A DNA stretch of 40,523 nucleotides from Bacteroidales bacterium (lineage in GTDB: Bacteria > Bacteroidota > Bacteroidia > Bacteroidales > WRLA01). Below the pieces are notes generated by a model. The model did not search any database, was not told the DNA's origin, and saw nothing but the letters and a program-made list of their open reading frames with translations. The DNA lies in the NCBI GenBank assembly GCA_031254805.1, contig JAIRTP010000042.1, positions 1 to 40,523 of the forward strand, given 5' to 3'. Of the stretch, positions 2,147 through 6,902 are shown one piece after another (position 1 is the first letter of the stretch; each line of letters opens with the position of its first letter). The translations under genes were made by a program, and so were the position numbers.

Positions 2147-2207
2147 GCGTCAACCAGTTTCATGGCAGAACGCTTTTTTTTATTCCCATTTTAAAAACTT
2201 AGCCGTT

Positions 2208-2255
2208 TTGTAACATTCTTGATATTTATTCTGTAATATTGCCAAAATACCTTTG
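2208..2255 (+). promoter_or_regulatory. Pho-box-like operator and -7 promoter of the porin gene
   Basis: TTGTAAC (2208-2214), 17 nt, TGTAATATT (2232-2240), 7 nt, then the -7 element TACCTTTG (2248-2255). The same three elements with the same two spacings occur in front of pstS (3548-3595). There is no -33 TTTG at the usual distance; the repeats occupy that position, as expected for an activator-dependent promoter. PhoB is the likely activator by function of the two target genes; that is inference. Confidence 0.65.
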
Positions 2256-2282
2256 CGCCGTAATTAAAAATTAGAAATAAGT

Positions 2283-3542
2283 ATGAAAAAAATGGTATTT
2301 TTATTTTGCGGCTTATGTCTTTGTGTTACAGGTTTTTCACAACACAGTGAACAAAATGCAACCAACGATTTGGAACAGAGAACCCAAAAGCTTGAAAAAG
2401 CTTTGCAAGCGTTACAAAAGTTGAAAGTTTCCGGCTATATTCAAGCGCAATATCAATGGGGCGAACAAGACGCTTCGTTGAAGGTAGGCGCGCCGAACGA
2501 AAATCCGGACAAGGCGTTTCAACGTATTGGCATTCGACGCGGGCGTATTAAATTTACGTACGGCGAGCGTGTTGCATCCGGAGTCTTTCAATTGGATATA
2601 ACGGAGAAAGGAGTGGGAATAAAAGACGCTTATTTAAACCTGCAAGATCCTTGGATCGGTTTTGCAGGATTGAAAGCCGGCGTTTTTGACAGGCCGTTCG
2701 GTAATGAAATAAGCTATTCATCGTCAAAACGAGAATCTCCCGAACGTTCAACGATTTTTCAAACGCTTTTTCCGGAAGAAAGAGATTTGGGCGTTATGCT
2801 GTACTTGCAAGCTCCAAAAAGCTCATCGTGGCATTTTTTGAAGCTTGAAGCGGGATTATTTGCCGGAAATGGGATTAAACAGGATACCGATAACAAAAAA
2901 GATTTTATCGGTCATTTGTCGGCAGACGGCAAAATAGGAAAACATGTAGAACTTGGCGGCGGAGTTTCATATTATTACGGGAACGTATATCAAGGAACCG
3001 AAAATGTCTATAAAATGGACGGCGTCGCGTTTGTGCTTAATGATAATCCTGACAATAAAGGAAAATTTGCTAAACGCGAATATATAGGATTTGATGTGCA
3101 ATTCGGTTTAAAAAGTATTTTAGGCGCCACGCAATTACGGGGAGAGTATCTCTTTGGACGACAACCCGGCGGCGCGTCAAACAGCAAAAGCCCCAACTCA
3201 TCTTCTTTACCTGCAACGGATACATATATTCGCGATTTTCTCGGAGGATATGTAATATTTGTTCAAGGAATAGGAAAATTGCCTTTATCGATAGTTTTAA
3301 AATATGATTGGTATAATCCCAACACGAAAGTTGCAAAAAACGAGACAGGATTGAATAATACCGGCGCCTCGGATGTAACGAGAAATACATTTGGCTTTGG
3401 AGCTTTGTGGCAAATCAATAAGGATATTTATCTACAAGCTTTTTATGAAATAAATAAGAATGAGATCTCGCAAAATCTTGACGGTTATACAAGCGACCGT
3501 AGAGACGATCTTTTTACCTTAAGATTACAATATAAATTTTAA
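2283..3542 (+). CDS. OprO/OprP-type phosphate-selective porin
   Basis: Outer-membrane channel of the porin O/P family, 419 residues. The N-terminus is a typical signal peptide (MKKMVFLFCGLCLCVTGFSQ). Residues about 25-50 form a short amphipathic helix (NDLEQRTQKLEKALQALQKL), as in the trimer-forming coiled coil of these porins. The rest is beta-strand-like, with the family features SGYIQAQYQWG, GIRRGRIKFTY and VFDRPFGNEISYSS, and the chain ends in LRLQYKF with a terminal Phe as expected for an outer-membrane barrel. It sits directly before pstS and shares an upstream control element with it, which supports phosphate as the substrate. Substrate selectivity itself cannot be read from the sequence. 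Confidence 0.88.
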   Translation: MKKMVFLFCGLCLCVTGFSQHSEQNATNDLEQRTQKLEKALQALQKLKVSGYIQAQYQWGEQDASLKVGAPNENPDKAFQRIGIRRGRIKFTYGERVASGVFQLDITEKGVGIKDAYLNLQDPWIGFAGLKAGVFDRPFGNEISYSSSKRESPERSTIFQTLFPEERDLGVMLYLQAPKSSSWHFLKLEAGLFAGNGIKQDTDNKKDFIGHLSADGKIGKHVELGGGVSYYYGNVYQGTENVYKMDGVAFVLNDNPDNKGKFAKREYIGFDVQFGLKSILGATQLRGEYLFGRQPGGASNSKSPNSSSLPATDTYIRDFLGGYVIFVQGIGKLPLSIVLKYDWYNPNTKVAKNETGLNNTGASDVTRNTFGFGALWQINKDIYLQAFYEINKNEISQNLDGYTSDRRDDLFTLRLQYKF

Positions 3543-3547
3543 CTGAA

Positions 3548-3595
3548 TTGTAACGACTTTGTCTTCTGTTTTGTAATATTACGCTTATATTTTTG
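3548..3595 (+). promoter_or_regulatory. Pho-box-like operator and -7 promoter of the pst genes
   Basis: TTGTAAC (3548-3554), 17 nt, TGTAATATT (3572-3580), 7 nt, then TATTTTTG (3588-3595), a TAnnTTTG -7 element. The geometry is identical to the element before the porin gene. The -7 box ends 5 nt before the upstream ATG at 3600, so transcripts should start at or after that codon. This favours the ATG at 3627 as the pstS start. Confidence 0.68.
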
Positions 3596-3626
3596 CATCA
3601 TGATCATTAAAAATAAAATCAGAAAA

Positions 3627-4442
3627 ATGAAAAAAACAATTTTAACTGCGATCATTTTAACGACTATCGCATTAGGCGCGCAAGCGCAACGAATCAAAGG
3701 ATCCGACACCATGTTGCCGTTATCCCAAAAAGAAGCTGAAGAATTTATGAACGTTAATCCCTCGCAGACCGTCACTGTAACCGGAGGCGGTAGCGGCGTG
3801 GGAATATCGGCGTTGCTTGAAGGAACGACCGATTTAGCGCAACTTTCCCGTAAAATAAAATTTGATGAAAAACAAAAATTCCAGTCGAACGGCAAATCAG
3901 TAAAAGAAGTAATTGCCGCTTACGATGCATTAGCCATTGTGACGCATCCTTCCAATAAAGTAAAAAATCTTACCCGCGAACAATTGGAAGATATTTTTAC
4001 CGGAAAAATTAAGAACTGGAAAGAAGTGGGCGGCGACGATTTGGCGATTGTTCCGTACGCTCGTGAAACATCTTCCGGAACATATGAATTTTTTAAAGAA
4101 AGCGTGCTGAAGAATAAAAATTATATGACGGGAATTATGAGCATGCCGGCGACGGGAGCGATCATTCAATCCATCAGTCAAACAAAAGGCGCTATTGGTT
4201 ATGTAGGATTGGCCTATCTCAATCAAAATGTGAAAGCGATCCATGTATCGTATGATCAAGGAAAAACTTTTGTGGAACCTTCGGTTGCAAATGCCAAAAA
4301 TGAGACCTATCCTATTGTGCGGCCTTTATACTATTATTATGAGTCTGCGTCGGAAAATAAGGTAAAACTGTTTATTGATTTTGTGTTGTCAACAAAAGGA
4401 CAGCAAATTGTATCGGAAATCGGTTTTATATCGGTAAGATAA
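3627..4442 (+). CDS. pstS: phosphate-binding protein of the Pst transporter
   Basis: Periplasmic phosphate receptor that hands phosphate to PstC/PstA. The ATG at 3627 is chosen because it opens a clean signal peptide (MKKTILTAIILTTIALGAQAQ); the ATG 27 nt upstream would add a charged stretch and probably lies upstream of the transcript start. The 271-residue product has the family hallmarks: IKGSDTMLPL after the signal peptide, GGGSGVGI, the segment LTREQLEDIFTGKIKNWKEV, and ARETSSGTYEFF, which contribute the phosphate-binding Ser/Thr/Arg residues. It is a short PstS, as is common outside the Proteobacteria. pstC follows 40 nt downstream on the same strand. Confidence 0.94.
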   Translation: MKKTILTAIILTTIALGAQAQRIKGSDTMLPLSQKEAEEFMNVNPSQTVTVTGGGSGVGISALLEGTTDLAQLSRKIKFDEKQKFQSNGKSVKEVIAAYDALAIVTHPSNKVKNLTREQLEDIFTGKIKNWKEVGGDDLAIVPYARETSSGTYEFFKESVLKNKNYMTGIMSMPATGAIIQSISQTKGAIGYVGLAYLNQNVKAIHVSYDQGKTFVEPSVANAKNETYPIVRPLYYYYESASENKVKLFIDFVLSTKGQQIVSEIGFISVR

Positions 4443-4482: not shown

Positions 4483-5691
4483 ATGAAAAAACTCCGGAAG
4501 ATTACCGAACAAATTGTCAAGCTATTATTAACTGTCAATGGCGGAGTCACAAGCCTCGCCATTTTACTTATTATTGTTTTTCTGTTTAAGGAAGGATTGG
4601 GATTATTCAAAAATCCTTCCGTTGAAAAAGGATACGTCCTTTGCGTAAATTCGGCTAATAACGTAGAACGACTCTCTTCGTATGAGATCAAGCAAATATT
4701 TGATTGGAAAACAACCGATTGGAACGAAATTGGAGGAAATGCCGGAACAATCGCGCCTTTCAGATTTGAAGAGATATTTTCGCTCTATTCCGATGAAGAG
4801 TTAGGAGAAGATTATTCGCTGCTTCCCGAAAAATTAGGCGAAGTTATCGCAAAGGATATCAATATTATCGCTTATATTCCGCAGGAGTTTTTTCCTCAAA
4901 ATAACAATGCCGTAAAAATATTAACTTCTGAAAATATTCGGTTTTCAGATTTCTTTGGAGGAACGGAATGGCTGCCGACCACTACGCCTTCGCCTCAATT
5001 TGGCGTATTTCCTTTAATATTAGGAACGTTATGGATCAGTCTTTTTGCTATTCTTATAGCCCTTCCGTTGGGCGTGGGCGTAGCCGTTTATCTGTCGGAG
5101 TTGGCAAGCGAACGCGTGCGGAAAATATTGAAACCTGCTATTGAGCTCTTAGCGGGTATTCCTTCTGTGGTTTATGGTTTCTTCGGATTGGTAGTTTTGG
5201 TTCCTTTGGTTCAGAGAACTTTTAATTTGCCGGTTGGAGAGACGGCTTTTACAGGAAGTCTGATATTAGCGATCATGGCGTTGCCCACAATTATTACAAT
5301 TGCCGAGGATGCGATGAGAAATACGCCGAGAGCTATGCGTGAAGCGAGCTTAGCGCTTGGAGCTACCCATTGGCAAACAATCTATAAAGTAATCATTCCA
5401 TACTCTTCATCAGGAATTATGGCGGCTATCGTTTTGGGAATCGGAAGAGCTATTGGAGAGACGATGGCCGTATTGATGGTAACGGGCAACGCAGCCGTAA
5501 TACCTTCTTCTTTATTTCAACCGATAAGAACTATTCCGGCGACTATTGCCGCCGAATTGGGAGAAGCTCCCGTCGGCGGAGCGCATTATCAATCGTTGTT
5601 TTTGCTGGGATCTATTCTTTTTATTATCACAATGATAATCAGCATATCTGCGGAATTCATCTCAAGACGTCGACAAAGTAAAGGTATCTGA
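4483..5691 (+). CDS. pstC: phosphate ABC transporter permease, with PstS-like periplasmic insert
   Basis: Inner-membrane permease subunit. The product is 402 residues, about 80-100 longer than the classic PstC. TM1 lies at about residues 10-35. Residues about 45-165 are not membrane-like and precede the conserved ABC permease core, which starts near LILGTLWISLFAILIALP and includes the EAA loop (REASLALGATHWQTIYKVI). Within the insert, YEIKQIFDWKTTDWNEIGG resembles the PstS segment REQLEDIFTGKIKNWKEVGG encoded just upstream, and INIIAYIPQEFF resembles the PstS segment GAIGYVGLAYL. The insert therefore looks like a shortened PstS-type fold fused into the first periplasmic loop. I recall long PstC proteins in other Bacteroidales, so this may be a lineage feature. 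Confidence 0.92.
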   Translation: MKKLRKITEQIVKLLLTVNGGVTSLAILLIIVFLFKEGLGLFKNPSVEKGYVLCVNSANNVERLSSYEIKQIFDWKTTDWNEIGGNAGTIAPFRFEEIFSLYSDEELGEDYSLLPEKLGEVIAKDINIIAYIPQEFFPQNNNAVKILTSENIRFSDFFGGTEWLPTTTPSPQFGVFPLILGTLWISLFAILIALPLGVGVAVYLSELASERVRKILKPAIELLAGIPSVVYGFFGLVVLVPLVQRTFNLPVGETAFTGSLILAIMALPTIITIAEDAMRNTPRAMREASLALGATHWQTIYKVIIPYSSSGIMAAIVLGIGRAIGETMAVLMVTGNAAVIPSSLFQPIRTIPATIAAELGEAPVGGAHYQSLFLLGSILFIITMIISISAEFISRRRQSKGI

Positions 5692-5693
5692 TC

Positions 5694-6548
5694 ATGCATA
5701 AAAGAATAAAACAAAAAATAGTATTTATCGTATTACGCTTATTAGGAATATTGATTGTCGGAATATTGCTGTGGATATTGGGATTTATAGTATATAACGG
5801 CGCGGAGGTTATTAATTGGACATTTTTGACTACCGCTCCGACAGAAGGCATGACGGCGGGAGGAATATTTCCCGCGATTGTCGGGACGTTTTGCCTGATA
5901 ACAGGAAGCGTCGTTTTTGCCTTTCCTATTGGGGTATTATCTGCCATTTATATGAATGAATATGCCGGAAATACATGGATAGCTAAGTTTATTCGCATTA
6001 TGACCAATAATCTGGGAAGCATTCCGTCTATTGTCTTCGGATTATTTGGCATGGCGTTATTTGTTAATACCTTAGGATTTGGAGATTCTATTATTGCCGG
6101 CTCTTGCACGCTTGGCTTGTTAGTTCTTCCGGTGATCATACGAACTACGGAAGAAGCGTTAAAATCTATCCCCGATACTTATCGTACAGGAAGTTTGGCT
6201 TTGGGCGCTACAAAATTACAGACAATTTGGCGCGTGATATTGCCTATGGCTTTTCCAAATATCATTACGGGGTTGATACTCTCCATCGGAAGAGTTTCGG
6301 GAGAAACCGCTCCTATTTTATTTACCGTAGCCGCTTATTTTCTTCCCAAATTGCCTGACAGTATTTTCGATCAGGTAATGGCTTTACCGTATCATTTATA
6401 TGTCATCGCAACCAGCGGAACCGACATCGAAGCTTCCCGGCCAATCGCTTACGGAACAGCTTTGGTATTGATAATCGTCGTTCTTTTAATAAATCTGTTA
6501 GCGACGTTTTTAAGAAAATATTTTGCGAAGAAGGTGAAAATGAATTGA
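5694..6548 (+). CDS. pstA: phosphate ABC transporter permease PstA
   Basis: Second membrane subunit of the Pst phosphate importer, 284 residues with about six predicted membrane segments. The permease core is typical: MTAGGIFPAIVGTFCLI, MNEYAG before the central helices, and an EAA loop near IPDTYRTGSLALGATKLQTI. It starts 2 nt after the pstC stop, so it is translationally linked. No pstB or phoU follows; the next elements are a terminator hairpin and a tRNA on the other strand. The transporter must use an ATPase encoded elsewhere. Confidence 0.95.
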   Translation: MHKRIKQKIVFIVLRLLGILIVGILLWILGFIVYNGAEVINWTFLTTAPTEGMTAGGIFPAIVGTFCLITGSVVFAFPIGVLSAIYMNEYAGNTWIAKFIRIMTNNLGSIPSIVFGLFGMALFVNTLGFGDSIIAGSCTLGLLVLPVIIRTTEEALKSIPDTYRTGSLALGATKLQTIWRVILPMAFPNIITGLILSIGRVSGETAPILFTVAAYFLPKLPDSIFDQVMALPYHLYVIATSGTDIEASRPIAYGTALVLIIVVLLINLLATFLRKYFAKKVKMN

Positions 6549-6720
6549 GAACAAAAGGCTTATAGCGAAGATTTGCTTTTTTATTTCTCATAATTTTGGA
6601 ATGCCTGAAATATTTGCTGGCGTATTTGGCATATTCTTTCAAGATTATAAAATCCGGACGTCATTAACAAAACCGTTATCAGATTCGCGCCGCCAAGTTT
6701 ATAATCATCCGTGATACGCT

Positions 6721-6760
6721 AAAAAAAGAGGCCGTCGAAAATTCGACAGCCTCTTTTTTT
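6721..6760. terminator. bidirectional hairpin terminator between pstA and tRNA-fMet
   Basis: Nearly perfect inverted repeat: AAAAAAAGAGGC, one C:A mismatch, GTCGAA, a 2-nt loop and the complementary arms ending in seven T. It has an A run on one side and a T run on the other, so it can end the pst transcript from the left and the tRNA transcript from the right. It begins 2 nt beyond the tRNA 3' end. Confidence 0.88.
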
Positions 6761-6762
6761 AG

Positions 6763-6834
<72 letters not shown>

Positions 6835-6848
6835 ATTTATTTGCGCTG

Positions 6849-6877
6849 CAAAGGTAATCATTTTCTTCATAACTTTG
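6849..6877. promoter_or_regulatory. divergent -7 promoter elements for tRNA-fMet and era
   Basis: TACCTTTG on the minus strand (6849-6856) is 14 nt before the tRNA. TAACTTTG on the plus strand (6870-6877) is 25 nt before the era ATG. Both match TAnnTTTG. Because the two sites face apart and are only 13 nt apart, their upstream halves must overlap, so RNA polymerase could probably occupy only one at a time. Confidence 0.6.
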
Positions 6878-6902
6878 CCACAAATTAATTAAATATTTTT
6901 TT

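Follow-up and report, generated by a model that had tools for sequence, protein, structure and literature searches.

Porin and pstS promoters of a Bacteroidales bacterium share a four-unit repeat that is probably the PHO box of Bacteroidota

The promoters of a porin gene and of pstS in a gut-type Bacteroidales bacterium (assembly GCA_031254805.1, contig JAIRTP010000042.1) carry the same four-unit repeat element, which is very probably the PHO box of Bacteroidota, an operator that PhoB would read and that would replace the -33 promoter element. It would belong to an ordinary class of operator, found here in a phylum not charted before, and is distinguished by a phylum-specific sequence and a rigid promoter geometry. 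PHO boxes were described from E. coli as tandem 11-nt direct repeats with 7 conserved and 4 looser bases (PMC4415409). Both promoters lie in the stretch of 40,523 nucleotides that was analyzed and that we call the window, and the features discussed are collected in Table 1.

An earlier sequence-only reading of the window had claimed that the porin and pst genes share an operator-promoter pattern, TTGTAAC-N17-TGTAATATT-N7-TAnnTTTG, with the same spacings at both promoters and different bases in between. The pattern matches 2208-2255 and 3548-3595 with 0 mismatches and identical spacings, the intervening bases do differ, and the chance expectation determined from 100 shuffles is 0. With up to three mismatches allowed, these two sites were the only matches in the window and the sole matches in the organism's own genome (2.2 Mb), for which the reversed control gave 0. 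Direct reading also agrees that TTTG is missing at the normal -33 distance from both promoters. The same reading had considered a three-unit array with helical phasing possible; the tandem array in 11-bp register is there, but it has four units at each site, the one 11 bp upstream of the others having been missed. TTGTAAC and TGTAATATT represent units 2 and 4 of this element, and the steps from unit to unit are 11, 11, and 12 bp at both sites. The sequence-only reading was correct in essence and underestimated the extent of the element.

Table 1. Predicted Pho units, -7 elements, and genes of the porin-pst region (window positions)
Feature	Positions	Strand	Basis or remark
Porin promoter, Pho unit 1, CTTAGC	2198..2203	+	Counterpart of CTTAAC in the de novo motif; 11 bp before unit 2
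Porin promoter, Pho unit 2, TGTAAC	2209..2214	+	Pattern match, de novo motif, composite scan
Porin promoter, Pho unit 3, TGATAT (weak)	2220..2225	+	11-bp register with unit 2; corresponds to GT of the consensus
Porin promoter, Pho unit 4, TGTAATATT	2232..2240	+	12-bp step after unit 3
Porin promoter, -7 element, TACCTTTG	2248..2255	+	TAnnTTTG consensus (PMC7366714, PMC9723704); 7 nt past unit 4
Outer-membrane porin gene, 419 aa	2283..3542	+	Weak Porin_2 match
pstS promoter, Pho unit 1, TTTAAC	3538..3543	+	Shares bases with the porin stop codon, TAA at 3540-3542
pstS promoter, Pho unit 2, TGTAAC	3549..3554	+	Pattern match, de novo motif, composite scan
pstS promoter, Pho unit 3, TGTCTT	3560..3565	+	11-bp register
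pstS promoter, Pho unit 4, TGTAATATT	3572..3580	+	12-bp step after unit 3
pstS promoter, -7 element, TATTTTTG	3588..3595	+	TAnnTTTG consensus; 7 nt past unit 4
pstS	3600..4442	+	TIGR02136, 246 bits
pstC	4483..5691	+	TIGR02138, above cutoff
pstA	5694..6548	+	TIGR00974, above cutoff

The porin and pst genes have the identities that had been assigned from the sequence. The porin itself has no curated family match, and an ortholog of it precedes pstS in many Bacteroidales. Translation of pstS likely starts at an in-frame ATG at 3627, as transcription is predicted to begin near 3600; the PstS proteins of relatives begin MKKTIL... Downstream of pstA (window 6549-6900) are found tRNA-Met and then era, not pstB-phoU, and the pst run of this genome (G000), which has two intact boxes and pstSCA, stops at pstA.

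For the comparison with relatives, 71 loci encoding PstS relatives were gathered and the DNA before pstS was taken, the window being left out, and unseeded motif discovery was performed on 63 nonredundant pstS upstream regions from other genomes. The de novo motif, ATCTTAACAnAATnGTAACAAnAnnGTAnnnnnnnTGTAAnATT, was detected in approximately 76% of the 63 regions, with a log-likelihood gain of 854 vs. 147 to 154 for shuffled sets. Its consensus is approximately CTTAAC-N5-YGTAACA-N4-GT-N9-YGTAAT and consists of four tandem 11-bp units, in order CTTAAC, (C/T)GTAACA, a weak GT unit, and (C/T)GTAAT. Composite scoring of the window together with the 71 loci identified 99 sites above 16 bits vs. one in reversed sequence. 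In all 93 sites above 20 bits, the gap from unit 4 to TAnnTTTG is 7 nt, and the step from unit 3 to unit 4 is 11 bp in 89 of them and 12 bp in only 4, which are the two window sites and the porin sites of loci L034 and L035. TTTG at gaps of 19 to 21, the -33 spacing, is found at none of the 93 box sites vs. 19 of 271 other promoters from the same loci.

The element is like the E. coli PHO box of pstS and phoA in its 11-nt repeats, its location at the -35/-33 position, and its association with pst and pho genes, and unlike it in its unit (Y(T/G)TAAC(A) vs. CTGTCAT), in having four units as the norm, and in being fixed to the sigma-ABfr -7 box TAnnTTTG where the E. coli promoters have a -10 TATAAT. 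TTAAC-like direct repeats of 11-bp period also form the boxes of Bacillus subtilis PhoP and cyanobacterial PhoB/SphR, which differ in promoter class, repeat number, and placement. The E. coli core TGTCA is not found, the core here being (T/G)TAAC, but since the PHO box consensus differs between species (PMC4415409), this excludes the E. coli type and not the class. Tandem direct repeats of 11-bp period, here four units, and a fixed distance to the promoter, in place of the upstream promoter element, are features that the element shares with the class. The -7 box has been placed at -12 to -5 (PMC9723704); with a transcription start 5 nt past this box, unit 4 would span approximately -28 to -23 and unit 1 approximately -62 to -57, so that an activator bound there could touch the sigma factor.

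A profile (R1) was built from 35 foreign pstS promoters. In the organism's own genome, the two window promoters ranked first and were the only full matches, at 3536-3600 (E = 5.7e-7) and 2198-2260 (E = 9.7e-6). The next matches had E = 0.057 or worse and were partial; examples precede helicase-like and oxidoreductase-like frames, as judged by eye, and these matches were regarded as chance rather than as further boxes. R1 was also used to scan 295 Bacteroidales genomes, some of which may be species used in its training, with 17 candidates scored per genome, and the gene directly downstream of each match was classed by comparison with labeled proteins and by reading. This order-wide scan returned 84 foreign matches at E ≤ 1e-3, from 58 of the 295 genomes. 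Fifty-one matches are located directly before genes for PstS (two families; 21), porins or porin-like proteins preceding pst or Pit (15), Pit (8), PhoB (4), PstC (1), PhoU (1), and a GlpT-like protein (1). Seventeen more precede genes for TonB receptors (8), a small secreted CarboxypepD_reg protein (6), and proteins that by eye are phosphatase-like (3), and the other 16, weak matches that are within coding sequence or lack a clear gene, show no clear phosphate link and were left unassigned. As is characteristic of a PHO box, the element is found before phosphate-acquisition genes and rarely elsewhere: 68 of the 84 matches at E ≤ 1e-3 and all 34 foreign matches at E ≤ 1e-5 fall into the named classes, 31 of the 34 belonging to classes other than pstS, on which R1 had been trained.

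The scans that had been suggested for assessing gene placement thus locate the box before phoB, pst, Pit, porin, GlpT, and TonB genes, which is not random, and conservation before porin and pstS orthologs in relatives was found with both the motif and the composite scan. The box precedes pstS and the porin gene, for example, in Parabacteroides sp. 52 and PF5-9 and in Paludibacter sp. 221. Among genomes of the same genus, G001 has a box before pstCAB-phoU and G002 has one before a Pit transporter gene that adjoins phoBR; upstream of phoB in G002 there is only a partial match (E = 0.02), which we did not count as phoB autoregulation. Where pstS lies directly behind the porin gene, the pstS upstream region usually has no box, and the porin gene mostly has one instead; this arrangement accounts for most of the pstS upstream regions in which the box is missing. 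Several gut-symbiont genomes contain broken-up pst operons, the pieces of which carry their own box; in L043 and L057 it lies upstream of pstC, and in L054 upstream of pstB.

The genes behind the box correspond to those that depend on PhoB (BF1576) in Bacteroides fragilis, the regulon of which includes pstS, pstCAB-phoU, a phosphate permease, and porin O (PMC3547664). Under low phosphate, the B. fragilis phoB mutant exhibits changes of -103-fold for pstS, -353- to -542-fold for pstCAB, and -52-fold for the Pit-type permease BF3715, and with phoB deleted, phoU is lowered and porin O altered (PMC3547664). B. fragilis PhoB binds the pstC promoter in an electrophoretic mobility shift assay (EMSA), but unlike the element described here, its target is known only as a 512-bp fragment within which no box was defined (PMC3547664). 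The Flavobacterium johnsoniae PHO regulon is similar in having a PhoBR cluster and a phosphate-controlled OprP-type porin and TonB transporters, and the part of the text that was searched describes no operator (PMC8115612). The PhoB protein of the sister genome G002 contains VYVNDRTVDVHITRLRK where E. coli PhoB, known from its DNA complex (1gxp), has VYVEDRTVDVHIRRLRK; very few residues of the recognition helix differ, in agreement with an 11-bp direct repeat. Linkage of the box to phoB, the recognition helix, and the B. fragilis genetics and EMSA together point to PhoB as the protein that would bind the element.

We propose that the four 11-bp direct repeats (approximately Y-T/G-TAAC) would present their units in tandem on one face of the helix, with 7 nt between the last of them and the sigma-ABfr -7 element downstream. 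On phosphate starvation, phosphorylated PhoB would bind the units head to tail, and bound PhoB would substitute for the missing -33 contact and recruit RNA polymerase. In the window, the first box would drive porin-(pstSCA) and the second, at the end of the porin gene, would drive pstSCA.

The sequence-only reading had assigned the two promoters to a Pho box read by an activator such as PhoB. The box is supported by conservation and placement; its reading by PhoB draws on relatives and B. fragilis, because no PhoB-clade regulator was detected in the organism's own assembly (96.8% complete) by scores or in a phylogenetic tree. PhoB-clade regulators are found in G001, G002, and most relatives. 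Three full OmpR-type regulators are encoded in the assembly, and all were rejected as PhoB, with scores of at most 170.5 bits vs. 200 to 235 in relatives and by their position in the tree. PstB was likewise not detected in the assembly (best score 154.8 vs. a cutoff of 343), PhoU was represented solely by domains within a 583-residue frame and not by a stand-alone protein, and no Pit was found. We infer that this organism probably has PhoB and that the box would mediate activation.

A possible but doubtful alternative, which concerns this genome only and is compatible with a PHO box origin, is that PhoB, PstB, and PhoU have truly been lost, leaving boxes that are remnants or are read by another OmpR-type regulator. 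In its favor, a nearly complete assembly lacks the PhoB clade, PstB, PhoU, and Pit together, pstA is followed by a tRNA gene and era, and phosphate genes vary among genomes of the same genus. However, neither the two boxes nor the pstS, pstC, and pstA frames look like decaying sequence, all of them being intact, and operon fragments with their own box exist in relatives. Moreover, relatives often have pstB-phoU-phoBR as a single block, so one unassembled contig would explain all four absences. Synteny with G002 did not place the missing region, the neighboring gene of G002 also being absent from this genome. It is unlikely that, after loss of PhoB, PstB, and PhoU, another response regulator took over the boxes and PstSCA operates with a borrowed ATPase.

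Proteins of the OmpR family generally bind direct repeats with a period of approximately 10 to 11 bp, which would suit a different family member with PhoB-like specificity reading the box throughout the order in place of PhoR-PhoB. This is very improbable, since several genomes have the box upstream of phoB itself, pst-phoU-phoBR operons are preceded by it as well, and the same gene set requires PhoB in B. fragilis (PMC3547664). A nonregulatory likeness, whether from recent duplication of one promoter, as the 1.3-kb distance and the uncommon 12-bp step of both sites might suggest, or from a generic Bacteroidota promoter, is already contradicted by the cross-genome placement and is scarcely credible, because the bases between the conserved parts differ and the motif occurs in dozens of families before nonhomologous genes.

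As a PHO box that PhoB would read, the element is apparently a Bacteroidota Pho operator new to the literature. Bacteroidota PhoB has been known genetically since 2013, and its operator was not found in open-licence full texts: our full-text search of such papers detected no Bacteroidota PHO box, although a subscription paper may exist, and no published PhoB binding data with base-level sites, against which the sequence-only reading had proposed a comparison. With a base-level consensus and a fixed promoter distance, phosphate-controlled genes become predictable across this gut and soil phylum, including those for TonB receptors and small secreted proteins, and the consensus supplies defined mutations for probing the way in which activators act together with the unusual sigma factor of Bacteroidota.

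Boxes were observed before genes for TonB receptors of approximately 900 to 940 aa, followed by a conserved secreted partner (L059 1513, L067 1430, L042 4, L051 1710, and L208 5197, the last on the minus strand), and these receptors may import a phosphorus compound across the outer membrane. The region before the TonB receptor gene of L208 (5197-5219, minus strand) contains an overlapping array of PHO units, apparently six. Secreted CarboxypepD_reg proteins of approximately 120 aa are encoded directly behind the box in L202 (8527-8886), L268, L275, L278, L286, and L290; PF13715 was found in the one that was scanned, and the genes are sometimes near those for TonB receptors or phoB. In another phylum, two Fibrimonadales loci (L085 and L086) encode a PstS resembling that of Bacteroidales, and the region upstream of its gene is PHO-box-like (36 bits); this PstS was possibly transferred together with its promoter.
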